From positions 1-37,616 of the forward strand of contig JAOZHV010000017.1 of NCBI GenBank assembly GCA_026014725.1: a stretch of DNA of 37,616 nucleotides. The letters run 5' to 3'. Both the position numbers and the translations under genes were made by a program. Below, piece after piece: positions 1,702-23,291 of the stretch; positions within the stretch are counted from its first letter, which is position 1; every line of letters begins with the position of its first letter. This DNA comes from Candidatus Bathyarchaeota archaeon (GTDB lineage Archaea > Thermoproteota > Bathyarchaeia > Bathyarchaeales > Bathycorpusculaceae). A model generated the notes under the pieces. That model made no database searches. It was not told the DNA's origin and worked only from the letters and a program-made list of their open reading frames with translations.

Positions 1702-4455
1702 TTATGGCTTTTTTCTGAGTAGTAGAATTCCGACTATGGCGATTGCAACTATTATTGCTATGGTTGAGCCGACAAAGTACAGTTCGGTTGGTGGTAGGCT
1801 AATGATTGGACCTGAGGTTTCGGTTGGTTCTGGTGCAGGGTCAACGTTGAATGCGGTTGTGGCATGTGATGGCCAGTATGATTCACTGCCTTCGAATGAG
1901 GCGTAAACCGTGAATTTGCCTGGGATATCTGGCTTCCAGTTGAAGCTAAAGAATCCGTCAGCGTCAGCGACAGTTGTACCTATGTCTCGCATGTTGTTGT
2001 TTGAGTCAAGCACGCTTAGTTTCACTGTTACGCCGGTAACGTTTGTTGGGCGTGGCTTCTGCATGTAGACGTATTCCATCCATGCGCTTTGGCTTTCGTC
2101 AGATACTGCTGGTACGCCGTTGGGGAAGCGCATAGGATTCACAGACTGTTTTGTGCCTGGTGAAACATCGGTTACGGTGCCTTTTATCATGACGCTATTG
2201 CCGAATGGAACTACATCGTTTGCGATTGAAACTGTCGTGCTGCTTGGGCCTTTGCCGACAGCGTAGATTTGGTGGTCGTAGTTGTTCCAGTATGTGAGTA
2301 CTCCGTCGCCAAGAGCGAATGTGCCTGGGTGAGCCCAGCCGAGCATCTCCCAAATGACGTCGCCTGTTGTATAGTTGTATACACGTACCTTAGCGCCTTT
2401 GAGGAGCGGTGTGTCTGCTGAGTGCTCGTGGGTTCCGATGAAGACTTTCCCGTCAGCGGTTAAGCCGTGGAAGACTGTGTAGTACTGGAAGATTTCGCCG
2501 CCTGTGAGCGCTGCTTGTTTCCAGAGCAGTTCTCCAGTTTTCAGGTCGTAGCAGAAAACATGTCCAGTGTAGCCTGCGGTGATCAGTTTGCCGTCATAGA
2601 TAGATGTGCCATAGACGTTCATGAGGCTGACCCAGCTGTAGTAACCGAATGGGTTAACGTCTGCTTGGGGTTCGCTTCGCCAGAGTTTGTTCCCAGTGTA
2701 TACGTCGTATCCTTCGAATGTTAGTGTTGGGAATTCTTGCAGTATGAATACGCCTTCACCAGCTCGGATGTAGAGTTTTTGGATAGTTTCCTTGTTACTA
2801 TTGACATAAGTCATGTCATAGTTCTTCATCCAGAGTATGCTGCCTACGGCGCCTCTTGATGCATTTAGGTTAATTGCGAAGAGTGTTCCTACGTCTTGGT
2901 TGTGGTAGTACAATGCACTTGTGCCTGCTGTCGGTAAGGTTCCGTTGCTGGCTAGTAAATAGTCACCGTATTTTACTTGTCTTATAGTGGGGCTCCAGTT
3001 TGATGGATACGTCGTAGATATTGTTACGTTGAAGTCCCAGGTTGGCAAGAAGGGTTGGTTGGGCGCTGTAGATGGTACTTGGATTAGGCTTGCAAGGCTT
3101 GCATTAAATGTTCCACTGACTTGGTAGGCGAATACTCGAGATGAGTTCCATTCGTATAGTCTCCAGATAGGACTTGTTGTGGTGCCGTCATTTCGCAGTA
3201 TGTAGCGTAGTTGCTCACCTTTTGGACCTGCAACTATAGTTCCTGCAGGTACATCTGTGATGTTTAGTGTATGTCTTGTGGTTCCATAGCGTGGGTGAAT
3301 GGCAGCACCAAAGTTGTTGGACCATATGTATCCTGGGTTGATGACTCCGTGTTGGTTCATGTCGTCGTACTCAACGTACATGCCAAAGGAAGGTGTCGCA
3401 CTCATTGTCTTGTTGCGCCAGATTTCTTGCCCAGTCTTTAAATCAACACATACCCAGTCGCCTCCAGTACCAGCCCACAATATTGGTTCTTGGTAGAGGA
3501 CTCTTCCGTGCATGATGATTTGAGTGTCTGAGAATCTGGTTTGGTATTGGTGTCCTGCGTTGAAGACTTGGCCTTCTCTTTCGCCTAAGAATGCGTTTCC
3601 GCCTACTACTCCACCATCTTCGGTTGGTTTAGTCCATAGAATGTGTCCGCTGTTTGGTGCAGTTCCTTGCGTCTGAATTCTGTTGTTGGGGCTTCCGTAG
3701 TCACGATCTGTTGCAGTGTTGAGCCAGTTTGAGGAAACGGCGCCCCAAGTGTTCATTTGTCCTTCTATTGGTCTAGTCCAGTATTCTGTTGGAAGAGGAT
3801 AGTATGTTATAGCTGTCGGATAAACAGGGTCTTCCTGTACAGTCACAGTATATGTTCTATTGCTAGACAAAAATGTGACTCCGTAGTAATCTCGACCTGC
3901 GGTACCGGTGGTGCTACTTGTGTTACTGCCGATGGACTCTGGAAAGAGCCAGTCAAGCTGCTCAAATATCACAGTTACAGTGTAATTGCCGGTGGCGTCT
4001 GGCGAATATTTAGAGTAGGTTGTCCCTGTAGAGTCAGACACTAAAGAACCCGATGGAGGAATTCTTTCTTTTGCGCCATCTGGTTTAGTGATTTCTACGT
4101 GGTATCTGTATCGGATGCTGTTGGTGTCCTGAGCTTGGTATGGAACTTGCGGGTTGAATATGACCATCGAGAATTCCTGACCAACACCTACTGGGTTTGG
4201 CGAAATTGTACTATACACCCAAGTTGGAATTTTATCGTGATATCGGTTCCACAGAGTGAGCCGTATTGTAGAAGCGTTTGCATTAAGGTCCCAACGCATT
4301 CCTGCTTTTATTGCGTCGGCTGTTGCCTGATTGTAGTTTATTCCGTTTATTACTTCTCCTTTAGCGGTTGGTTGGAATGCTAACATTGTCGCCATAGATG
4401 TTAATAGTATTACAGCGATAATTGTAGCCATAGTTTTCGTTTTTAATATTTGCAT
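1702..4455 (-). CDS. Secreted, membrane-anchored PQQ-type beta-propeller protein
   Basis: 917 residues. A signal peptide (residues 1-32, hydrophobic core about 9-26) leads into a long extracellular part, then a C-terminal membrane span (about 890-912) ending in LLLRKKP, so the protein hangs from the outer face of the membrane. Pyrrolo-quinoline-quinone-like blades recur in the middle, each with a motif such as VCVDLKTGQEIW, GYDVYTGNKLW or CYDLKTGELLW. An N-terminal region (about 80-210) and a C-terminal region (about 760-870, ending SFNWKPDIPGKFTVYASFEG) look like Ig-type beta-sandwiches. No quinone dehydrogenase signature is visible, so a structural, binding or adhesive role is more likely than catalysis. 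The ATG start has GGGAG about ten bases upstream. A related protein lies at 20367-23291. Confidence 0.85.
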   Translation of the reverse strand: MQILKTKTMATIIAVILLTSMATMLAFQPTAKGEVINGINYNQATADAIKAGMRWDLNANASTIRLTLWNRYHDKIPTWVYSTISPNPVGVGQEFSMVIFNPQVPYQAQDTNSIRYRYHVEITKPDGAKERIPPSGSLVSDSTGTTYSKYSPDATGNYTVTVIFEQLDWLFPESIGSNTSSTTGTAGRDYYGVTFLSSNRTYTVTVQEDPVYPTAITYYPLPTEYWTRPIEGQMNTWGAVSSNWLNTATDRDYGSPNNRIQTQGTAPNSGHILWTKPTEDGGVVGGNAFLGEREGQVFNAGHQYQTRFSDTQIIMHGRVLYQEPILWAGTGGDWVCVDLKTGQEIWRNKTMSATPSFGMYVEYDDMNQHGVINPGYIWSNNFGAAIHPRYGTTRHTLNITDVPAGTIVAGPKGEQLRYILRNDGTTTSPIWRLYEWNSSRVFAYQVSGTFNASLASLIQVPSTAPNQPFLPTWDFNVTISTTYPSNWSPTIRQVKYGDYLLASNGTLPTAGTSALYYHNQDVGTLFAINLNASRGAVGSILWMKNYDMTYVNSNKETIQKLYIRAGEGVFILQEFPTLTFEGYDVYTGNKLWRSEPQADVNPFGYYSWVSLMNVYGTSIYDGKLITAGYTGHVFCYDLKTGELLWKQAALTGGEIFQYYTVFHGLTADGKVFIGTHEHSADTPLLKGAKVRVYNYTTGDVIWEMLGWAHPGTFALGDGVLTYWNNYDHQIYAVGKGPSSTTVSIANDVVPFGNSVMIKGTVTDVSPGTKQSVNPMRFPNGVPAVSDESQSAWMEYVYMQKPRPTNVTGVTVKLSVLDSNNNMRDIGTTVADADGFFSFNWKPDIPGKFTVYASFEGSESYWPSHATTAFNVDPAPEPTETSGPIISLPPTELYFVGSTIAIIVAIAIVGILLLRKKP

Positions 4456-4671: not shown

Positions 4672-4950
4672 TCACACAGAAAGTCCCATGCTCCGAAGGA
4701 ACTCACTGGATTTACGCATTTGTTCAAAGCATTTGAGGCCTTTCTCAGTTATTAACAGACCCTCATCAGTTCGACGAACCATATTTAACTCGATAAAATG
4801 CTCTAAGATCTTCTGAAATCTATCATATGGGATGTTGGCGCGGCGAGCAACCCTTGTAGGGCTTGCCTTTCCATTTTTTCCACTCTCAAGGCAAATGTAT
4901 TCAAGAATGGCTGAGTAAATGTCTATCTTACTGCGCTTGGTAGCCGTCAA
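4672..4950 (-). CDS. Small winged-helix DNA-binding protein (ArnR1-like)
   Basis: 92 residues forming one archaeal winged helix: helix 1 (DIYSAILEYIC), the turn-recognition part (SPTRVARRANIPYDRFQKIL, about 31-50), a wing (MVRRTDEGLLITEKG) and a final helix (KCFEQMRKSSEFL). It resembles the DNA-binding half of ArnR/ArnR1-type regulators. Those are normally fused to membrane helices; here no membrane part is present. Instead the gene overlaps the 3' end of an upstream seven-helix membrane protein gene by 23 bases, so the two are very likely translated together. The start is TTG at 4950; no later start lies in frame before the domain. The partner may be the sensor, and the target is unknown. 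Confidence 0.75.
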   Translation of the reverse strand: MTATKRSKIDIYSAILEYICLESGKNGKASPTRVARRANIPYDRFQKILEHFIELNMVRRTDEGLLITEKGLKCFEQMRKSSEFLRSMGLSV

Positions 4951-5626
4951 GTTCTTGGTGACACCTCTTGCTGACCATATAGTATATTCGGATCAAAAGA
5001 GCCAAACCTATAAGCGGGGCAATCTGGGAACCAATCAGAGCAGCTTGGCCGCCAGCATCTAGATTCCAGATTATAAACAAAAATTGCCCCAACCAAATAA
5101 ACGCAAATGCCACTGGAGCACTAATCAAGCCAGAAACACTGCCGGTTGCTAATTCTAGCCTTCTCACTATAAAGAAAATTATGTAGGATAACAAGGCAAG
5201 GTTAACTATAGCAAATACGTCATTGTAGGAGTAAACAGATACCAAGCCTGGTGGATTAATAACATAAAGTAGCACGAAAATACAAATTACTGAAACAACA
5301 GACCATATGGTGATAGCCAAGTGACTATGCTTAGTGGTCTTCTGCGCTCTACCCGAGAGAAAATAGGAGGAAGCGATTAAAGTGAAACCCCAAGTCTGAG
5401 TAATTACACGTGACCACATGATAGAACTTGAAAAAGAGTCAACTGATGGATACATTAAATGTATGCCGAGGAAAATGTAAGAGAGGGTTAAAAATAGGAA
5501 ACCAAACGGTAATCCAAGCAAAATAATTGAGCGCTGTGTTTTATAGACATTGAAAAACAGAACGACAAGCAAAAGCGCTAGAGCAATAGAAAAGATACCG
5601 ATTAGCTGTATTACTGTCGAAAGCAT
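4928..5626 (-). CDS. Seven-helix membrane protein, possible sensor for the adjacent winged-helix protein
   Basis: 232 residues with about seven predicted membrane helices (near 5-28, 34-56, 68-90, 100-124, 134-155, 165-188 and 195-217), short loops and a hydrophilic C-terminal tail (SKRCHQELDGYQAQ). No enzyme motif is visible. The size and layout match the 7-TM sensor-like proteins often encoded next to small HTH genes in archaea. The ATG start is preceded closely by GGGTGA. The TATA candidate lies near 5664-5673. The stop codon lies inside the next gene, so the two form one transcription and translation unit. Confidence 0.75.
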   Translation of the reverse strand: MLSTVIQLIGIFSIALALLLVVLFFNVYKTQRSIILLGLPFGFLFLTLSYIFLGIHLMYPSVDSFSSSIMWSRVITQTWGFTLIASSYFLSGRAQKTTKHSHLAITIWSVVSVICIFVLLYVINPPGLVSVYSYNDVFAIVNLALLSYIIFFIVRRLELATGSVSGLISAPVAFAFIWLGQFLFIIWNLDAGGQAALIGSQIAPLIGLALLIRIYYMVSKRCHQELDGYQAQ

Positions 5627-5749
5627 CCACTCACCCTTTTACCCATAGAGTTATTCTGTTAATAATTTAAACTTAATCTAAAATAAACTATCAACACCCT
5701 ATTTCTTCAGTCAAACAGCATAACGGATCAATCAACTACAAAAGCTTGT

Positions 5750-6757
5750 TTATGGCACCAAAATTGCTCTTCCTACAATCCTGCCCTGCTTCAACTTTAC
5801 AAGCACTTCTTCGGCTTGGCTGAGTTTGTAGGCTTTCCAGTCAACCTTCACTTTGCCCTTTGATGCCAAACGGAGGGTTTCATCCATGTCCTGCCTTGTG
5901 CCAATAACGCTACCTATGATGGCGTGCTCTTCAGGGAAAAAAATCCGTGCGTAGCCAAGAACACTAAGGAGCACTGTGCCTCCGCGTTTTACAAGTCTTA
6001 GTGCTTGGTCAACAGCTTTTTGGGAGGGGGCATGAACCATAACCACGTCGGGCTTGCCAGTTTTCGCTGCAAAATCTTCTACTTCCATGACGGTTAGTGC
6101 GTGGTCTGCACCGATGTCTTTGGCGAGTTTAAGCTTATCCTCTGAAGTATCCACCGCGATGGTTTCGGCTCCTGCTAACTTCGCAAACTGCAACGACATG
6201 TGCCCCACACCGCCGATTCCAATTACGGCTACCTTCTGCCCGAACTGAACTTTCGCGCGTTTAACTGCATGATAGGCAGTGATGCCTGGGCAAAACAGGG
6301 GCGCGCTCTCTTCGAAGACCAAGTTTTCTGGCAGGCGATACACGAAGCTACTGGGGGCTGTTAGGTATTCTGCGTATCCGCCATCTACGGTTTCGCCCGT
6401 GGTTTGGCGGTTTATGCATATGTTTTCTCTTCCTGTGCGGCAGAACTCGCATGTGCCATCGGTTTGCCAGAGCACTTGCACGCCGACTCTGTCGCCTCTT
6501 TTGAACTCGCTGGTTCGGTTGCCTGTTTCTTGTATGATGCCTGTGATTTCGTGTCCTGGGATGATGGGGAGTTTTGTTGGTATGCCGAAGATGGGTTTGA
6601 ATTCGCCTTCTATCATGCTTAGGTTGCTGTAGCAGACGCCGCAGGCTTTGATTTTGATGAGCACTTGGTCTGGTGCTGGTTTGGGGTCTGGGACAGTTGT
6701 GTAGGTTAAAGGGTGGTTTTCTATTTTGTCTAGGCGCGTGAGGAGTTGGGCGTTCAT
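5750..6757 (-). CDS. Zinc-dependent alcohol dehydrogenase (MDR family)
   Basis: 335 residues, the usual length of medium-chain dehydrogenases, oxidising alcohols or reducing aldehydes with a nicotinamide cofactor in the cytoplasm. Catalytic zinc ligands appear to be C42 (in CGVCYSN), H69-E70 (PGHE) and C156 (LFCPGITAYHA). The structural zinc site is D100-C103-C106-C114, with Asp where most relatives have Cys; Sulfolobus ADH has Glu at that place. The Asp that usually follows the first catalytic Cys by three (CHTD/CRSD) is Asn45. The Rossmann motif GIGGVGHMSLQFAKLAGA (about 180-197) is followed by D203 (AVDTSEDK), which favours NAD(H). The gene stands alone. The start is ATG with a weak GGAG about 12 bases upstream. 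Substrate unknown. Confidence 0.9.
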   Translation of the reverse strand: MNAQLLTRLDKIENHPLTYTTVPDPKPAPDQVLIKIKACGVCYSNLSMIEGEFKPIFGIPTKLPIIPGHEITGIIQETGNRTSEFKRGDRVGVQVLWQTDGTCEFCRTGRENICINRQTTGETVDGGYAEYLTAPSSFVYRLPENLVFEESAPLFCPGITAYHAVKRAKVQFGQKVAVIGIGGVGHMSLQFAKLAGAETIAVDTSEDKLKLAKDIGADHALTVMEVEDFAAKTGKPDVVMVHAPSQKAVDQALRLVKRGGTVLLSVLGYARIFFPEEHAIIGSVIGTRQDMDETLRLASKGKVKVDWKAYKLSQAEEVLVKLKQGRIVGRAILVP

Positions 6758-6872
6758 TTTTTGGGTTCTCCGTGAAAAAAATTAGTTGTTGTTTGGTTGC
6801 TGATTTACAATGCTTTACGTGTGTGATTTATTGGTATGTGATTGTGAATTTGCAGCAACAATTAAGGTGTTG

Positions 6873-8837
6873 CTAATAGTTTATCTTGATAACCCAAGCG
6901 TCTTCCTCGTTAAATACAAGTTCATAATGAGCACTCTCTAAGAATAGAGTCACATTATAGTTGTCTCTCCATTTTTGAACCTGATGGCTGGCATAGTTGC
7001 TGAGGTAAATGTATGAAGCATTGTATTTCTTTAAAATGGCTAATGCCTCTGCGGAACGCGGGTCTTTTGCGACGATGCGGCTCTCGTCTTGCCGCGTAAA
7101 CATCATATCTGACCAGCCTACTTCTGATATGCTCAACAGGGGCATAACTATGCGTCTGCCGCTGAGCACGGGTATCCAAGTGCTGGAAGTTCCAACCCAA
7201 TGGTCGTTATAGATTACAGCGTCTTTTGGCGTGTGGTTTGATATCCACATTAACGCGTTGTAGTCAGCTGAAGATATCCTATTGATGTGGATATCATTGC
7301 GAGGAAGAATTGTATCTACTCCTATAAATAGCACAGACAAGAGAAGAGCTATCATTATTATTGAATGAAGATTAATCCATCTTTTATAAGCTAAAACCTG
7401 AAGCTTATTTTTCACCCAGTCATACGCTTTAACAAAACAGAATGCTACTATAACCAAAATAGGCAACGATAATAGTGGATTGAGAAAGCTTGATTGAAGG
7501 TAGTACCAGCCTGGAAAGGGAACCCTGAAGATTTCGTTTAGCATTAATAGAAATATACTGAGAAACCACGCTAAAAGAAAACTGCGGCTTTTTCTTCTAA
7601 CAAAAACAGCAGTAAAGGTCAATATTCCAAAGAGGAGCAGCCAGTAGCCATAGTACATGAAGGAGTTGTAGCCAAACTCGGACCTCATCGAAGAGGTTGT
7701 GAACCATGCTAGTAGTGCCTGATACTCCATTGGAGGAATCGGGACCATTACTCTTTTGAAGATATTGATAACCCATGGCAACGCTAAACCGATTCCGACA
7801 ACAATGACTGTTATGCCTGCTAGAATGCTTTGTTTTTTCTTTTGCGAAAAAAATAATCCGAAAGAAGAAAAAAGGACAATAAAAAGTGCAGTTGTAATGA
7901 ATGAGACGGTGTATGCCAGAAACACGCTTGCTAATGTAGCACCTGCCAGTAAGAGCAGTTTTAGTTTTCCACTAATCGAATAGAGGTACAGCAACAGCAT
8001 CGTGCTCAGAGTTAATGCTAACCCAACGAGGGCTGGAAACCGACCGTAAGTTACCATTGAATAGAAGCCAGAGGATAGTAAAGTTGTAAAAGCCGTTGCG
8101 CAGAGAGCGATTCTGTCATCATTTAGCACTCTTCTTGCGATTATGAAAACTTGAGCATGTATAATTACAAAGGACAGCGAAAAAAAGGATACAAGAATTG
8201 GCATTGACATTGAAGGATCAAGGAGATACAGGAATGCTATGACAGAGGGGTATGCTGGTGGATAGGTAAATTGGGCTTGCTCAGGAAAGTATGGTGCCCA
8301 AGATTGAGGTATTGTACCCTGCTCGGCAATCAAAGTAGCGGCGAGGGTGGATGTTGCTGGGTCATCCCCTATTGGTATTAGGATGCCGTTTTCTGGCCAC
8401 GGAAACGATATTAGAACTACAGAAGCAATCATTAGAGCTATGAGGAGAAGGTAGGAAAGAGGCATAGTGAAGGGTTTTAGGTTTGTTTTTAGTGTGCCTC
8501 TTCTCCAAGAGTACGCCAGCAGGGGAACCGACAGCAAAAGAACTGATAAGATGATTGTGTATTGATTTATTGGGACATGCAGAAAGGACAGATAAAGTGC
8601 GGTTAGTGTTGTGTAAGCTATTCCAATGATGGGCGATAGGATTAGTTTTTCTGTTAAGCGAAGGTCTTTCCAAGCTAAGGCTTGCAGGATTGAATATCCT
8701 GGAAGGAACAGAACAAACAAGACCCGTGCTATGAGCGAGAGGGCTGATATGCCGCCAATTATGAAGGCGATTAGGGCAAGCAAGAAGCCAATAATTATGA
8801 AAGTGAATTTTGGAAGAGTTATTTCCTTAAAGAACAA
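6873..8837 (-). CDS. Polytopic GT-C-like membrane protein (putative glycosyltransferase)
   Basis: 654 residues with a dozen or more membrane helices and a soluble C-terminal domain (about 530-654). The first 90 residues (LFLPGYSILQALAWKDLRLTE) resemble the DUF1616-type N-terminus of archaeal membrane glycosyltransferase relatives. D158-D159 (PIGDDPATS) lies where GT-C enzymes carry an acidic pair in their first external loop. The C-terminal domain (KDAVIYNDHW, VLSGRRIVMP, YIYLSNYAS) resembles the external domain of archaeal dolichol-sugar transferases. It may add sugars to lipid carriers or to surface proteins. It starts with TTG at 8837 with GAGG upstream, 30 bases after the collagen-like gene, so it is probably co-transcribed with the surface proteins. 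Donor and acceptor unknown. Confidence 0.7.
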   Translation of the reverse strand: MFFKEITLPKFTFIIIGFLLALIAFIIGGISALSLIARVLFVLFLPGYSILQALAWKDLRLTEKLILSPIIGIAYTTLTALYLSFLHVPINQYTIILSVLLLSVPLLAYSWRRGTLKTNLKPFTMPLSYLLLIALMIASVVLISFPWPENGILIPIGDDPATSTLAATLIAEQGTIPQSWAPYFPEQAQFTYPPAYPSVIAFLYLLDPSMSMPILVSFFSLSFVIIHAQVFIIARRVLNDDRIALCATAFTTLLSSGFYSMVTYGRFPALVGLALTLSTMLLLYLYSISGKLKLLLLAGATLASVFLAYTVSFITTALFIVLFSSFGLFFSQKKKQSILAGITVIVVGIGLALPWVINIFKRVMVPIPPMEYQALLAWFTTSSMRSEFGYNSFMYYGYWLLLFGILTFTAVFVRRKSRSFLLAWFLSIFLLMLNEIFRVPFPGWYYLQSSFLNPLLSLPILVIVAFCFVKAYDWVKNKLQVLAYKRWINLHSIIMIALLLSVLFIGVDTILPRNDIHINRISSADYNALMWISNHTPKDAVIYNDHWVGTSSTWIPVLSGRRIVMPLLSISEVGWSDMMFTRQDESRIVAKDPRSAEALAILKKYNASYIYLSNYASHQVQKWRDNYNVTLFLESAHYELVFNEEDAWVIKINY

Positions 8838-8867
8838 ATGAAAGCGCCTCTGTAGAGGAAAATGAGT

Positions 8868-10448
8868 TTAGTCGATTTTCCATATGCGCACCCGAACATA
8901 GTTCCAGTAGACATCGTTTGCTCCTCGGTAAAGTGTTACCGTGTTAGTTGTTGAATCAATGCGGACCAAGCCGAACTCCCCATACACCTCAGTCTTAACC
9001 AGATAAACGTCTCTACCTACACCAAAAGAGTCGGTGGAGCCTGCTATAACGTAGCCTCCGTCAGATGCTGCGACAACAGACCATGCGACATCAAAGTCTG
9101 TTCCACCGTAAGTTTTAGTCCACTGAATGTTCCCCCATGCATCTGTTTTCGCCAGCCAAAAATCGTAAGGTCCAGCAAAGGAACCAATAACACCCCCTAA
9201 CACATATCCCCCGTCTGATACGACAACCAAAGAGTAAATATCGATATCTGAATACCACTTGTTCCATTCCATGTTTCCAAGCGCGTCAGTCTTCACTAAT
9301 AGGTCGCCACAGGCAAGTAAGTATCCGCCATCCAATGTCTTGGCAAGAGACCAGCCAGTAACTCCGTTGTAGGTTTTGCTCCATTCTATATTTCCGTTTG
9401 TGTCGGTTTTAATCAAATAGACTCCAGGTCCAGAAGACCCTGTGTGACCTGCGATTGCATATCCGCCATTAGACGTTTGAACAATAGAGCACCCATAATT
9501 GAAGTTTGTTTCACCATAGGTTTTATTCCATTGCAGGTTTCCGCTTGCATCAGACTTCACCAAATACACATAAGAGCCTTCACCAAAAGACTGCGTTTCA
9601 CCTGCTATTGCGTAACCACCGTCAGTTGTCTGAACAACAGAACTCCCTGTATCGTACCTTGCTCCACCGTAGGTTTTGCCCCATTGCATATTCCCGCTGG
9701 CATCAGTCTTAACCAAATACACATCGCCGTCTCCAGCACCAGAAGAGTATGTGCAACCCACTAAAGCGTACCCGCCATCGGATGTGCGAACGACGGAAGA
9801 TGCGTAATCTTCGTTTGTTCCGCCATAGGCTTTGTTCCACTGCATGATTCCGTTTGCATCGGTTTTAACTAAATAAAAGTCGGTGCTACCGCCAAAAGAC
9901 CCTGTGGAGCCTGCGATAGCGTATCCGCCATCAGCTGCCTCGACGACACATCGGCCTTCTTCGTAGCTGGTTCCGCCATAGGTTCTGTTCCATGAGTGTA
10001 TGTATCCTGTTAAACCAAGGTATCTTTGATGTTCGCCGCCGCTTGCGGACGCCTTACCTGTTATGTCAATCAACAGGTTATCGTAGCCTAGATTATGCGT
10101 AAACGTGATTGCTTGACCTGTTTTATCGCTGATGTCAACCCAGCCACTGTCATAATCTGGCAAGTAAGGTCCTTGCGCACCTGTTGCTCCGGCTGGTCCT
10201 TGGGGCCCCTGAGCGCCTGTAGCGCCCGTTGCACCCGTTGCGCCTGTTTGTCCTGGAGACCCCTGTGGCCCTGTTGCGCCAGTGTCGCCTTTAGGTCCTT
10301 GCTCGCCTCGTAGTGGCTGCCCTTGCAAGCTCAAGTTCACTAATAAAATGGAAATTCCTGCTGCCACTACACATGCAACTAAAGTAGCCAACAAAATTAT
10401 TACAAAGAAAGTTGTTTTTTCAATCATTATTTTAGGCATTTCTATCAC
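8868..10448 (-). CDS. Membrane-anchored collagen-triplet and beta-propeller surface protein
   Basis: 526 residues. An N-terminal membrane anchor (about 13-38) is followed by 16 unbroken Gly-X-Y triplets (residues 48-95, rich in GAT, GPQ and GAQ), a collagen-like stalk. Next comes a short domain (about 101-146: [26 protein letters not shown]). Then seven repeats of about 45-50 residues, each starting W-x-K-x-Y-G and containing DGGYAIAG and YLVKTDAxGNMQ, best read as a seven-bladed propeller. The last 35 residues ([18 protein letters not shown]) look like the missing C-terminal strands of the short domain. The GTG start at 10448 overlaps the upstream gene by 17 bases; ATG at 10439 with GAGAGTGA ahead of it is an equally good start. 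Likely extracellular and adhesive. Confidence 0.85.
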
Positions 10449-11472
10449 TCTCTTTAGGCAAGCAACCTATATTTTTTGAATAATTATTTGTTTGTTTGCT
10501 TATAGCTAAACGTGGGCTGTTCTGATCACTTCCTTTAAAGTAGACAAGTAAGCCAACGCTTACTACGGCAACTACAGCAATTGGGAGTGCCAATAGTATT
10601 GGCTGAAAACCTGAATTTGGTGCAACCTGCTCAGCCTCAGCTATAGTGAAGTAAGTGATGTTTGAAATGCCCATATTGCCAAAAATATCACTAGCAAACA
10701 CGGTTATGTTATGTGAACCTATACTCAGGTCTGATAGAGTCATGTTTCCATTTATGGCAATTCTTGTTTGATTATCTAAGCTGTATCCTATCCATGAAGC
10801 AGTTGCATTGATTGTAAAATCAAGCGGTAGTGTGAATTGGGTTATGTTGTCTGGAGTGTAGGTTGTGTTTTGAGGGGGTGAAATAATAGTGGGGATTGGG
10901 ATAGGCGGATTGGGGTAGGGGTCTTTGCTCATTACTATGGGGTATTTCTGGAATGATACTGTTTTAGAATTGGGTTCTAGTTGAAAATGCATGGTTTGGG
11001 TGATATAGGTGTCGTTTGATCTTCCTGTTGAAATAGTTTTGCCATTTGTTGTGTAATATGCCATATAAGATGCCTGTGCAACCACTACTATATGTACCAC
11101 ATGTTCAGTGTTAGTTAGGTTGCTAAAAACGGCTGTATAGTCTGTTACTGTATCGCTTCTTGGGAACCTTTGTGGAAGGATGCGGGTGCCATCCAAATAC
11201 ACAGAAAGAATGTATTGCCCTACTAATGCGAATCCCTTATAGTATGAATTCCAAGACTCAGGTTTGATAATAAGAAAATCTAATTTGAAGGTGTTATCAG
11301 CATAATAATCAGAGTAATTCTTTGGGCTTCTAACCACTAGGGTTGGCAATTCAGTACTGGGCGTTTTTGGGTAAGGTATAAGGTTAGCATCTGTCACCTT
11401 AACTAGCGTCAAAGATTCAATTAAGAAAACCATCATTAAAAGAGCAGTTAGAGCAAAAACAGCTCTTCTCAT
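10432..11472 (-). CDS. Secreted, membrane-anchored protein with an Ig-like domain
   Basis: 346 residues, family not recognised. A signal peptide (about 1-29), a beta-rich external part with many N-glycosylation sequons (NYS, NLT, NDT, NITV, NMT), a proline-rich linker ([12 protein letters not shown], about 184-195), and an Ig-like domain (about 200-278: [11 protein letters not shown] ... [17 protein letters not shown]). A membrane span (about 288-310) and a short cytoplasmic tail follow. The Ig-like part resembles domains repeated in archaeal S-layer-associated proteins. The gene overlaps the collagen-like gene by 17 bases and lies 93 bases after the beta-helix gene, so it sits in the middle of the surface operon. 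Confidence 0.75.
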
Positions 11473-11565
11473 AGCCCATCATTCGTCTATAATTATTGTT
11501 TGCTTAATAGTTTTTCAGTCAAAAATTATTGACTAAACTTTGTCAAAGTTCCTTGACTAAACAAC

Positions 11566-12726
11566 TCAACATTCAAGTTTTCTTTTCAGCGTAACCATAA
11601 CAGCACATATCAACGTGAGAAATAAAACCGTAATCAGACAGGTTGCAATCTCTGGTATAATCATTGGAAATACTTCAAAATTAGGCGCTGACAGAGTTGG
11701 CATATAATTTACTTTACCGAGGGTAAAATCGTCATAGTAATCATAGATTAGTTGATCTATTATTGTTGTGTTGGTTGTTCCCCACCAATTATATGGTGCA
11801 TCAACATTGTTATCTGGGACATCATTCTTGATGTTGTAATTATGGTTTTCATAAATATTGTTAAGCAAAAGAGTTGGCGCATTATTTGAAAATAAATGGG
11901 TCAAATACAATCCAATCGTGTTATTAGTAATAGTATTATTGATAACAAATGGATTACAAGGTACAAACATTTGCCAAGCATCCAAGGTTATGCCCTTTTC
12001 GTTATTCGTAATCAAATTGTTTTCAATCACCGTTGTCAAATTAGGCCAGTGCCAACTAGGGTTATACAGCGATGTACTTACACGGATTCCAGTCGAGCAT
12101 TCGGTTACTATATTATGAGAGACAATCAAATTGGCACCAAAAACATCTATTCCCTGACCAATAACAGTATTATTAGTAATTATTCCATTACCAACCATCA
12201 CCAATCCGCCCATCAGGAAATTACCAGCAACAAGAGGCATACCAGTCGTTGTCTGGATAGAAATGGCATTGTTACAGACATTGTTAGATAACTTTGGGGA
12301 ATTATTAGCGGTTATAGTTGAGGTTAAAATGCAATTCTGGATTATGCAACCATTGCCGGTGTCTTCATTCCAGTCAGTGCTGTTTTGAGTGAAAATAATT
12401 TCTCCTCCAACAAAATTAGTGGGTCCGCTGGTACCTCCAATTGCTTGTAATGTACCGTTGACCATAATGTAGTAACCGTTGAGGTTTACTGTAACACCTG
12501 ATTCAACTATTAGTGTTACTCCATAATCAACAAGGATGTTTCCTGTAAGATTATAGGGGCTACCTGTTTTAGTCCAAGCTCTGTTTGAATTAATGATTCC
12601 GTTAACTTGTGTACCGCTACTTTGTGATGAAGCAAAGTTTAATGTCGCACCTAATAAGAGACCAATCAACACTGCAATTGTGCATAACGTGAAAGGTCTG
12701 CCTTTTTTAGTCATGCCCTTTATCAT
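11566..12726 (-). CDS. Secreted right-handed beta-helix protein (NosD-like repeats), C-terminally anchored
   Basis: About 386 residues from the ATG chosen at 12726. A signal peptide (FTLCTIAVLIGLLLGATLNFASS) precedes NosD/pectate-lyase-like coils with repeated asparagine-rich turns (IENNLITNNEKG, INNTITNNTIGL, SNNAPTLLLNNI) typical of a parallel beta-helix. A membrane span near the C-terminus (ATCLITVLFLTLICAVMV) ends in TLKRKLEC. Such proteins bind carbohydrate or form surface fibres; no catalytic residues are recognised. The reading frame is open to a TTG at 12810, but the candidate TATA box (TTTATATG, near 12778-12785) lies inside that extension, so a start at 12726 or 12714 is preferred. 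It is the first gene of the surface operon. Confidence 0.8.
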   Translation of the reverse strand: MIKGMTKKGRPFTLCTIAVLIGLLLGATLNFASSQSSGTQVNGIINSNRAWTKTGSPYNLTGNILVDYGVTLIVESGVTVNLNGYYIMVNGTLQAIGGTSGPTNFVGGEIIFTQNSTDWNEDTGNGCIIQNCILTSTITANNSPKLSNNVCNNAISIQTTTGMPLVAGNFLMGGLVMVGNGIITNNTVIGQGIDVFGANLIVSHNIVTECSTGIRVSTSLYNPSWHWPNLTTVIENNLITNNEKGITLDAWQMFVPCNPFVINNTITNNTIGLYLTHLFSNNAPTLLLNNIYENHNYNIKNDVPDNNVDAPYNWWGTTNTTIIDQLIYDYYDDFTLGKVNYMPTLSAPNFEVFPMIIPEIATCLITVLFLTLICAVMVTLKRKLEC

Positions 12727-12824
12727 CAATCTATTTATGCTGTGTGTGTCTTTAAAATTTCTGTCACCAGAATATTGCATATAAATCAATAACTTTAATC
12801 CATGTCTCAAATTCTAAACGTGTA

Positions 12825-12902
12825 TGGCGGGTCCGATGGGATTTGAACCCATGACTTTCAGCTTAGAAGGCTGACGCGCTATCCGTACTGCGCCACGGAC
12901 CC
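12825..12902 (-). tRNA. tRNA-Arg(TCT)
   Basis: A complete cloverleaf on the minus strand: acceptor GGGTCCG/CGGACCC, D stem GCGC/GCGC, anticodon stem TCAGC/GCTGA with loop CTTCTAA (anticodon TCT), T stem ATGGG/CCCAT, discriminator G and encoded CCA (12825-12827). A TATA-like AAATTTTATC lies near 12936-12946. No intron. Confidence 0.96.
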
Positions 12903-20366: not shown

Positions 20367-23291
20367 TCATTTTCTCAACTTTCGCACTGCAACGATAGTG
20401 TATATACTGATACAGATAGTCACTATAACAGCTACAATTATGCCTATGATTAGAGGCATCAAACCAGATAGTGCTGCTTCAACATCTGCTTTGAGAAGAG
20501 GCATTGTTTGCTGCGGTTCAGTCACAGTTAAGGTTTGGCTTTGACTACTGCTTGCCAAGTGAGTAGCATCTCCAGGCCATGAAGCAAATACTGTCCAATC
20601 ACCAGTTATGTCAGGTTTGTACATGACTGTGAAGCCGCCGTTCTCGTCTGTTACTGCAGAGATGTTGACTGGAAGCGAACTGTCATGCTTGCTAAAGTAC
20701 ACATTCATCGGGACTGCGCTGTGAACGTTGTTTATGCTACCCGCAACAGTAGTTGTATCACCAAAAACAATACTGCTGGGTCGCAACTCGAAGGTAATAC
20801 TGGTCGAAACTATAGTCGCGGGAGGGGCTTCGCTGAAACAGTAGAGGTTCCAATCGTTGGTTCCAACGTAGAGTGAGCCATTGTAGGGGGTAGGTATTGA
20901 GTGCATTTGAGTATTGAAAGAGTAGTAGGATAACGATTTTCCGGTTTGAGCATCGAGAACATGCATTATTCCTGCCTCATTTACAACATAGATGTTGTTA
21001 AACGAGCACGATATTCCCTGTGCAACGTTTTCTCGTGAAGTATAAGATTGCCACGCAAGGCTTCCGTCAAGAGCGTTAAGAGCAGTTATACCATAGTAAT
21101 CGTTGAATATGAATAAGCCATTTTTGTAAAGAGCGTTTACCTGTCCACAGCCCCCATTCTGCTGTGCGGTACCAGGGTTAATAGTGGCGTTGTATGTCCA
21201 AAGAATTTCGCCGGTTATTGTATTCAAAGCGTAATTGTAGAGCAAGGCGGTTCTCACAAAAGCTACACCATTACCGATTGTGGGAGATGCAACCATGCTT
21301 CTTCCCATTCCATAAGATACTGTAGTATCAGGGTAAGGAAGTGTTGTATTTAGTATGATGTTTCCAGTTGCTGGATTAAGCTTAAAGAAACTTCCAGCCG
21401 TAGGGGTGCTAGATGTAATATAAAGACTATCATCGACAATCGTCGGAGTAGCATAGATTGGTCCTCCAGTTTGCACCTGCCAAATGATTGTTCCGCTGTT
21501 AGCGTCTAAGCAATAAATAACGCCATCTAATGCGCCTAAATATACTTTGCCATTATAGATTATTGGAGAGCTAACTACAGCCTCTATACCAGCTGCAAGC
21601 ACTGCCGCTGTGGGTTTTATTCCAGATAATGTAGTTGTCCATACCTTGGTGCCAGTTTTTGCATCTAAACAGTGAATGCTACCGTCGTCAGCGCCCGTAT
21701 AGAGTTTACCATTTGCAACTGCCATCGTAGAATAAATCATAAGACCCGCCGTGTAATTCCATATCTGCTGTCCAGTAGATGCGTCAAAAGCGTAAATGAT
21801 TCCGTCTTTCGAACCTATATACCCTACTCCGTTGACAAATGTCGGCGAAGACGCAAAAGCTGCTCCTGCAGTAAACTTCCATTTAAGCATTAAGTTTGTA
21901 GGACCAAAACCGTTAGCTGAATGCTCTGGATCATTTAGGAACATGGGCCAGTCTCTTGGCGTGTCTCCTATACACCATACTTCCTCCTGATAACCCGTGC
22001 CAGCAGTTCCACCTGAGTAAGTATAGCTGTCGTTGGAGGCTGAAGATGTGGTTGGAATCACATACAAATTGCCATAAGCATTGCACTGCATATTATTCGG
22101 CGCGCCGTTTTCAAAGGGTGCAGACCATACAATTTCTCCGGTGAAAGCGTCCAAAGCATCAAACTTTGAATAGCCAAACTCGCCGGTAGCGAAATCGCGA
22201 TACTGATTTTCTCCACTTTGGATGAATACTTTGCCACCTGCAACAGTTAGATAGTTTGAGTAACCAATTCCAGGTCCTTTAGATTTCCATACTAGTTCGC
22301 CTGTTGTAGCATTTACCGCGTAGGTATAAGTATCTTGATTATGTTCGTAGACCATGCCATAGGCTACTGCTGTCCCTATGGCCCACTGATTGTAGTAAGT
22401 ACCAGGGTTGAAGGTCCAGAGTAGTTCACCTGTAGTTATGTTCCAAGCTCGCATATTTCCGTCGTAGCCTCCGTGCACAATCTTACCATCAATGTAACTC
22501 ATGCCGTAACTGAAACCTGTCGTCGTTGGTGTAGTCCAGATGGTTTGTCCTGTAGTCGCATTAACACCTCTTAAGAAATTGAAAGTTGTAGAATAAACTA
22601 TTACTCCATTTCCGTAGACCTGCGGCGATTCACTGCTATATATTCCATAGTCGGTCATGTTTGCTCTATTCCATATTGCTGTTGGCAGCTGTGCTGGATT
22701 CTGAAGGTTCCACAGTATACCACCGCTTGCAGCCGCTTTAAGTTCTGGGATGTAACTTATCCCTTGCATCCATCCTCCGCCGTTGCTGAATCCAGATGGG
22801 CCTGTCCATACAAGCGAGCCGTCAGCTATTTTGTAGCAATTGCTGCCTATCAGCATGTATGTATTGTCGAGCTTCGCAATGTTACCAGATGCTGTGATAT
22901 TCCACACAATCTTTCCTGTTGATCTGTCTAAAGCAATTGTTTGTGTTCCTATACGGATTCCCGAATAAATAAATCCCCAAGTTTGCACAATAACTAGACC
23001 GTTGAAGGCCCATGGACCTTGGAGCAGATTTGGTATTTTAGCGATCCATTGGATGTTGGGTTGCGATGGGCTAGGTCCATCAGCAAAGTTTGTTCGTTGA
23101 GCTGAGGCAGTATTTTGTGACCATTCGTACTGGAGCATATTGCTTGGTACATTAGATGTTTGAGCATCTACAATGATATCAGAATTTAGCAATGCAACGA
23201 AAGTCACAGATATTAACAGAATTAAAAGTACTGCAACTGCAAATGTAACGAATATACTATTTGGTTTTTTTATGCCATTTACTTTTTTCAT
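20367..23291 (-). CDS. Large secreted, membrane-anchored PQQ-type beta-propeller protein
   Basis: 974 residues. An N-terminal signal/anchor (about 13-35), about eleven blade motifs of the PQQ type (for example ALDRSTGKIVWNITA, AWNITTGELLWTFNP, AFDASTGQQIWNYTA, CLDANSGTIIWQVQT) in two blocks separated near residue 440, so probably two propellers. An Ig-like domain (about 830-925: RPSSIVFGDTTTVAGSI ... MYKPDITGDWTVFASWPGD) and a C-terminal membrane span (about 940-965) follow. The protein faces outside the cell. No quinoprotein active-site signature is evident. It is divergent from a TrmB-like regulator, which may control it. Same architecture as the protein at 1702-4455. ATG with AAGGAA upstream. 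Confidence 0.85.
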   Translation of the reverse strand: MKKVNGIKKPNSIFVTFAVAVLLILLISVTFVALLNSDIIVDAQTSNVPSNMLQYEWSQNTASAQRTNFADGPSPSQPNIQWIAKIPNLLQGPWAFNGLVIVQTWGFIYSGIRIGTQTIALDRSTGKIVWNITASGNIAKLDNTYMLIGSNCYKIADGSLVWTGPSGFSNGGGWMQGISYIPELKAAASGGILWNLQNPAQLPTAIWNRANMTDYGIYSSESPQVYGNGVIVYSTTFNFLRGVNATTGQTIWTTPTTTGFSYGMSYIDGKIVHGGYDGNMRAWNITTGELLWTFNPGTYYNQWAIGTAVAYGMVYEHNQDTYTYAVNATTGELVWKSKGPGIGYSNYLTVAGGKVFIQSGENQYRDFATGEFGYSKFDALDAFTGEIVWSAPFENGAPNNMQCNAYGNLYVIPTTSSASNDSYTYSGGTAGTGYQEEVWCIGDTPRDWPMFLNDPEHSANGFGPTNLMLKWKFTAGAAFASSPTFVNGVGYIGSKDGIIYAFDASTGQQIWNYTAGLMIYSTMAVANGKLYTGADDGSIHCLDAKTGTKVWTTTLSGIKPTAAVLAAGIEAVVSSPIIYNGKVYLGALDGVIYCLDANSGTIIWQVQTGGPIYATPTIVDDSLYITSSTPTAGSFFKLNPATGNIILNTTLPYPDTTVSYGMGRSMVASPTIGNGVAFVRTALLYNYALNTITGEILWTYNATINPGTAQQNGGCGQVNALYKNGLFIFNDYYGITALNALDGSLAWQSYTSRENVAQGISCSFNNIYVVNEAGIMHVLDAQTGKSLSYYSFNTQMHSIPTPYNGSLYVGTNDWNLYCFSEAPPATIVSTSITFELRPSSIVFGDTTTVAGSINNVHSAVPMNVYFSKHDSSLPVNISAVTDENGGFTVMYKPDITGDWTVFASWPGDATHLASSSQSQTLTVTEPQQTMPLLKADVEAALSGLMPLIIGIIVAVIVTICISIYTIVAVRKLRK

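Follow-up and report, generated by a model that had tools for sequence, protein, structure and literature searches.

The window, a 37,616-bp stretch of DNA that is one complete contig of a Bathyarchaeia genome (G000), encodes on its minus strand a protein of 526 residues in which a membrane segment, a collagen-like stalk, and a small beta domain interrupted by a beta-propeller follow one another (Table 1). The frame is listed from a GTG codon; the likelier start on sequence grounds is the ATG at 10437-10439, because it is preceded by GAGAGTGAT and sits in the ATGCCTAA overlap with the upstream gene, whose end falls within the same letters. A short basic stretch forms the extreme N-terminus and is followed by the hydrophobic segment, which is likely a signal anchor. 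The stalk behind it consists of exact Gly-X-Y triplets with no break, and its score against the Pfam collagen family passes the cut-off (32.2 vs 27.2 bits); tail-fibre families also match this stretch. The initial annotation had read sixteen triplets behind a membrane anchor, and both count and position are borne out. A Gly-X-Y stalk displaying a surface head domain is shared with SclA, SclB, and Lcl, but matches to the NCBIfam models of these proteins are confined to the stalk and lie far below all three cut-offs, the head domain is unrelated, and those proteins carry an LPXTG motif where the window protein has its N-terminal membrane anchor.

Table 1. Features of the 526-residue protein, with positions given on the window.
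Feature	Residues	Positions	Strand	Evidence or remark
Whole open reading frame	526 aa	8868..10448	-	GTG first codon as listed
Hydrophobic membrane segment	~13-36	10341..10412	-	Sequence reading
Collagen-like stalk	48-95	10164..10307	-	16 Gly-X-Y triplets; Pfam PF01391, E 9.1e-8
N-terminal half of small beta domain	97-147	10008..10160	-	Profile positions 1-48, 28.5 bits; model strands 99-105, 113-117, 125-132
Inserted seven-bladed beta-propeller	152-487	8988..9995	-	Blade profile, 28 strands, CylK match by sequence and fold
C-terminal half of small beta domain	493-526	8871..8972	-	Profile positions 60-93, 20.2 bits; model strands 494-499, 503-508, 517-524

The gene belongs to a run of minus-strand genes (4928-12810) downstream of a tRNA-Arg gene (12825-12902), and the run may possibly form one operon. 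Its other members include frames at 11566-12810, for a repeat protein that looks like a right-handed beta-helix and matches no Pfam family, at 10432-11472, for a protein whose membrane segment is C-terminal, and at 6873-8837, for a membrane protein of the DUF6541 family. Elsewhere in the window are two more large propeller proteins, at 1702-4455 and 20367-23291, which match PQQ_2 (E 6.9e-11 and 8e-60, respectively) and Ig-like domains. The flanking surface genes are not shared by the gene neighborhoods of the relatives described below, so the context gives no functional hint.

Division of the small beta domain by the propeller

The blade profile finds seven repeats in the propeller region, and an AlphaFold2 monomer model of residues 93-526, built from an eight-sequence alignment (mean pLDDT 86.7, pTM 0.84), places 28 strands, four for each of seven blades, between model residues 61 and 393, in agreement with the seven repeats counted by the initial annotation. 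Among solved structures, the propeller comes closest to that of CylK, which is also seven-bladed, both by sequence (E 5e-16) and by fold (E 4.7e-20), and the Pfam family PF17164 (DUF5122) reaches 17.2 bits against it, under the curated cut-off of 27. Judging from the repeat pattern, the first strand, SWNRTY, would supply the outer, fourth strand of the last blade, and this would leave the propeller's ends side by side.

On either side of the propeller, the model contains three further strands (model residues 7-13, 21-25, and 33-40 before it, and 402-407, 411-416, and 425-432 after it). Since the 28 propeller strands are thus complete with six others left at the two ends, the C-terminus lies outside the last blade in this model, to which it might otherwise have belonged. 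The six strands match those of the intact small domain in order. A 94-position profile built from eight uninterrupted domains, with no split protein among them, gives two complementary matches in the window protein, which follow the order of the domain, do not overlap, and together tile it; the best score among 2000 residue-shuffled copies of the protein is 9.2 bits. The same two-piece pattern is found in about 20 relatives. In a joint alignment of intact and split sequences, the entire propeller falls at one hairpin turn of the intact domain, between the motifs HxRxxGG and FYGAxW. An intact domain from a Chloroflexota protein (L080), modeled with AlphaFold from a 14-row alignment that includes split sequences, has a pLDDT of 93.0 and shows a hairpin (55-57, 60-62) at this insertion point. 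No credible Pfam family was found for the small domain, whether intact or fused, and none in PHROGs.

The profile matches confirm, at the level of sequence, the suggestion that the segment after the stalk and the last residues are two halves of one small domain interrupted by the propeller. The models are consistent with the two halves packing against each other in one domain. Because 345 residues separate them in the split protein, the two ends could instead be read as separate pieces, one forming a neck before the propeller and the other a cap after it. We consider this very unlikely, as more than 10 uninterrupted homologs hold both pieces contiguously and in the same order, a profile of such homologs alone finds both, and prediction gives the intact domain a single compact fold.

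Intact relatives and trimer-forming domains

The initial annotation had proposed looking for relatives in which the small domain is uninterrupted, and a search for intact versions in 257 genomes of the class, together with bacterial sequences, provides them in several settings. In a 163-residue protein from the same genus (L046/L114, genome G093), a membrane segment and collagen triplets lead up to the intact domain, and L047 and L050 have the same layout; the genomes with an intact domain on a collagen stalk include G156 and G184 besides G093. Behind a coiled-coil-like segment it is found in L041, L044, and L064. Outside Archaea it occurs in the bacterial sequences L079, L080, and L082; a Phycisphaerales protein has a single intact copy at its extreme end, and two Chloroflexota proteins (L079:1887-2741 and L080:2416-3262) have three tandem intact copies, which follow a single hydrophobic segment and might mimic the trimer within one chain.

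Among solved structures, the best fold match to the intact L080 domain is 3h6j (probability 1.00, TM 0.69, E 1.3e-3), the sialidase-like pseudaminidase of Pseudomonas aeruginosa, which is the same protein as 2w38. A sequence profile of 15 intact domains independently puts 3h6j/2w38 at the top of 177,635 PDB sequences, with the match at residues 334-370, although this match is weak (E 0.035) and spans only the first 39 positions of the profile. The enzyme likewise has a propeller, of the sialidase type, and a C-terminal domain predicted to share the fold, but there the domain follows the propeller (residues 334-370 of 438), is uninterrupted, and has no collagen stalk. The part derived from 2w38 has been called a trimerization domain and used as an engineering part (PMC9147764). 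Given that the best match of the intact domain is to an enzyme with a reported trimerization domain, trimerization of the window protein is likely, and the collagen stalk, the phage-fiber matches, and the tandem triplets in Chloroflexota point the same way.

After 3h6j, the intact domain gives weak fold matches to several phage fibers and tailspikes (E 0.35 or more), and in a viral structure library its best match is the tail fiber of Pseudomonas phage phi2 (D7GN32, E 2.5e-4). A similar small beta domain is present in the R2 pyocin fiber (6ct8) and in D7GN32, with E below 0.001 only for the latter. Phage tail fibers and tailspikes with such a domain are trimers; unlike in the window protein, no inserted propeller was seen in them. 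Two IMG/VR contigs (L085 and L086) encode fiber-like proteins whose last domain is a divergent relative of the small domain with longer loops, matched by the profile at its start only. A tblastn search of 50,697 phage records with the intact L080 domain and the fiber-like domain of L085 gave no match, which leaves fold similarity and the two divergent viral contigs as the basis of the phage link. These matches of the intact relative, with that to 3h6j/2w38, support the idea in the initial annotation that the small domain is of the kind known from phage-fiber-like trimers.

An alternative hypothesis is that the domain is split but the protein monomeric, with the collagen repeats acting merely as a flexible spacer. 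The stalk is just 16 triplets long, and in some relatives dockerin-like or Ser-rich segments take the place of collagen, both of which would fit such a spacer. This has to be set against the fold and weak sequence match to an enzyme with a reported trimerization domain, the match to phage fiber and tailspike proteins, the intact versions on collagen and behind coiled-coil-like segments, and the tandem triplets in Chloroflexota, and on balance we regard a monomer as unlikely.

Diversity of the split relatives

All of the split sequences (18/18) fall on one side of a branch in the small-domain tree, a branch with support of 94/91 that is recovered in 96% of bootstrap trees. This tree is built from a short domain, and many of its deeper branches are weak. 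A single split group is as expected from one insertion, and the tree is consistent with one event in an ancestor within Bathyarchaeia. After it, the stalk and the number of blades would have changed, and one lineage would have gained a propeller in a second loop. Among the split proteins, the window protein, L012, L015, L021, and L026 have a collagen stalk, L009, L010, L014, L019, and L027 have a dockerin-like segment in its place, and L018 and L020 have a Ser-rich segment, so that some relatives have no recognizable trimeric stalk.

The inserts vary as well. Seven blades are found in the window protein and eight relatives. A 929-residue protein from the same genus (L112; G094:C67:5218-8004) carries 14 repeats between its half-domains, which may amount to a pair of seven-bladed propellers sharing a loop. 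Others have 1, 2, 3, 3, 3, and 5, and the one to five blades of several relatives are too few for normal propeller closure within one chain; relatives with such short arrays include L071, L092, L091, L027, L102, and L107. In L113 and L032 (G069:C8 and G053:C2), a second repeat insert occupies the neighboring loop, after the motif GK(Q/V)SLDP, giving 5+6 and 4+7 repeats, respectively; in L084, this second loop alone is occupied, by seven repeats. The three cluster together in the tree (89/85). In another sequence (L024; G061:C119), the N-terminal half of the split domain is present and the frame continues into what looks like a tyrosine recombinase, so that this is probably a broken gene.

Since every sequence comes from assembled genomes or contigs, and N gaps occur inside the repeat region of two related frames (L016 and L017), the nesting, or else the differing blade numbers and insertion sites, could be ascribed to misassembly of repeat-rich metagenome bins. 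Yet many genomes, including several that are single-contig records, show the split arrangement, the window frame is open throughout, and the blades within one protein differ by 15-40% at the DNA level, so that assembly did not simply copy one blade to produce the long arrays. For the short arrays, a collapse of repeats is still conceivable. As an explanation of the arrangement as a whole, we find an artifact scarcely credible.

The proteins with few blades suggest a further, tentative and rather doubtful, reading, in which the small trimer-forming domain serves by nature as a platform for display, its two neighboring loops accept propellers of varying size, and three chains with too few blades for a ring of their own (two blades per chain in L014/L092, for example) jointly close one. 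Two-bladed lectin subunits that complete a ring together are exemplified by the Ralstonia lectin RSL.

Proposed architecture and function

We propose that the window protein is a membrane-anchored fiber on a collagen stalk, with a trimer-forming head whose hairpin turn holds a nested propeller, that it is probably a multivalent binder, and that the arrangement arose by one insertion; we give this reading a probability of roughly 0.78. The N-terminal segment would anchor the fiber in the membrane, and the collagen repeats, to judge from their sequence, would form a short triple-helical stalk. Atop it, the small beta domain would lock three chains together, as its fold and weak sequence similarity suggest; related domains do so at the tips of phage tail fibers and in the P. 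aeruginosa pseudaminidase. The closed propeller would sit in the beta-hairpin turn with its first and last strands adjoining, and because its ends are adjacent, the small domain could still fold from its separated halves, as the homology with intact relatives implies and the models are consistent with. Every head subunit would then project one propeller from a single loop, giving three identical binding faces per fiber.

What would such a fiber do? We infer that it is displayed at the surface, and that multivalent binding of an extracellular ligand, such as matrix or cell-surface glycans, and hence adhesion, is its most likely role. A functional analogy is offered by Bap1 and RbmC of Vibrio cholerae, surface and matrix adhesins of biofilms whose propeller binds exopolysaccharide (PMC10102183); this comparison was made through the literature and not by sequence, and these propellers have eight blades and are found without a collagen stalk or a trimer-forming host domain.

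Alternatively, the propeller could be a surface-displayed enzyme domain, CylK- or lyase-like, and not a binding module. Its closest solved relative belongs to an alkylating enzyme, and propellers can be catalytic (PMC8916777). However, CylK requires Arg105, which is contributed by its own N-terminal Ca-binding domain (PMC8916777), and no match to this domain was detected in the window protein, where the sequence matches start at CylK residue 225; CylK-type alkylation is unlikely for this reason. CylK (7ron, 7fh6) is moreover a soluble enzyme, and its seven-bladed propeller is C-terminal, not nested. The range of blade number among the relatives, from 1 to 14, is also a better fit to binding than to a fixed active site. 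Overall, an enzymatic role seems improbable to us, and we favor the multivalent binder.

Every module of the protein is of a known kind. In the open-licence full-text literature and among solved structures, we found no collagen-stalked fiber whose trimer-forming domain has a propeller inserted in a loop, and the nesting, the two alternative loops, and the archaeal combination with a collagen stalk appear to be undescribed in the sources searched. The family provides a natural series around a domain that has no Pfam entry, with no insert, an insert in loop 2, in loop 1, or in both, and with 1 to 14 blades, which makes it testable how a small domain can accept a large closed one and still fold and assemble, and which may offer a design route to multivalent display. 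To our knowledge, little is known of the cell-surface biology of Bathyarchaeia, on which a search of the open-licence full-text literature found no paper, and the proteins described here point to one type of surface fiber in this class.

The sole further collagen-like stretch above the Pfam cut-off in the G000 genome (L007/L122; G000:C44:59125-59322) is flanked by Ig-like-looking repeats and a C-terminal membrane segment.
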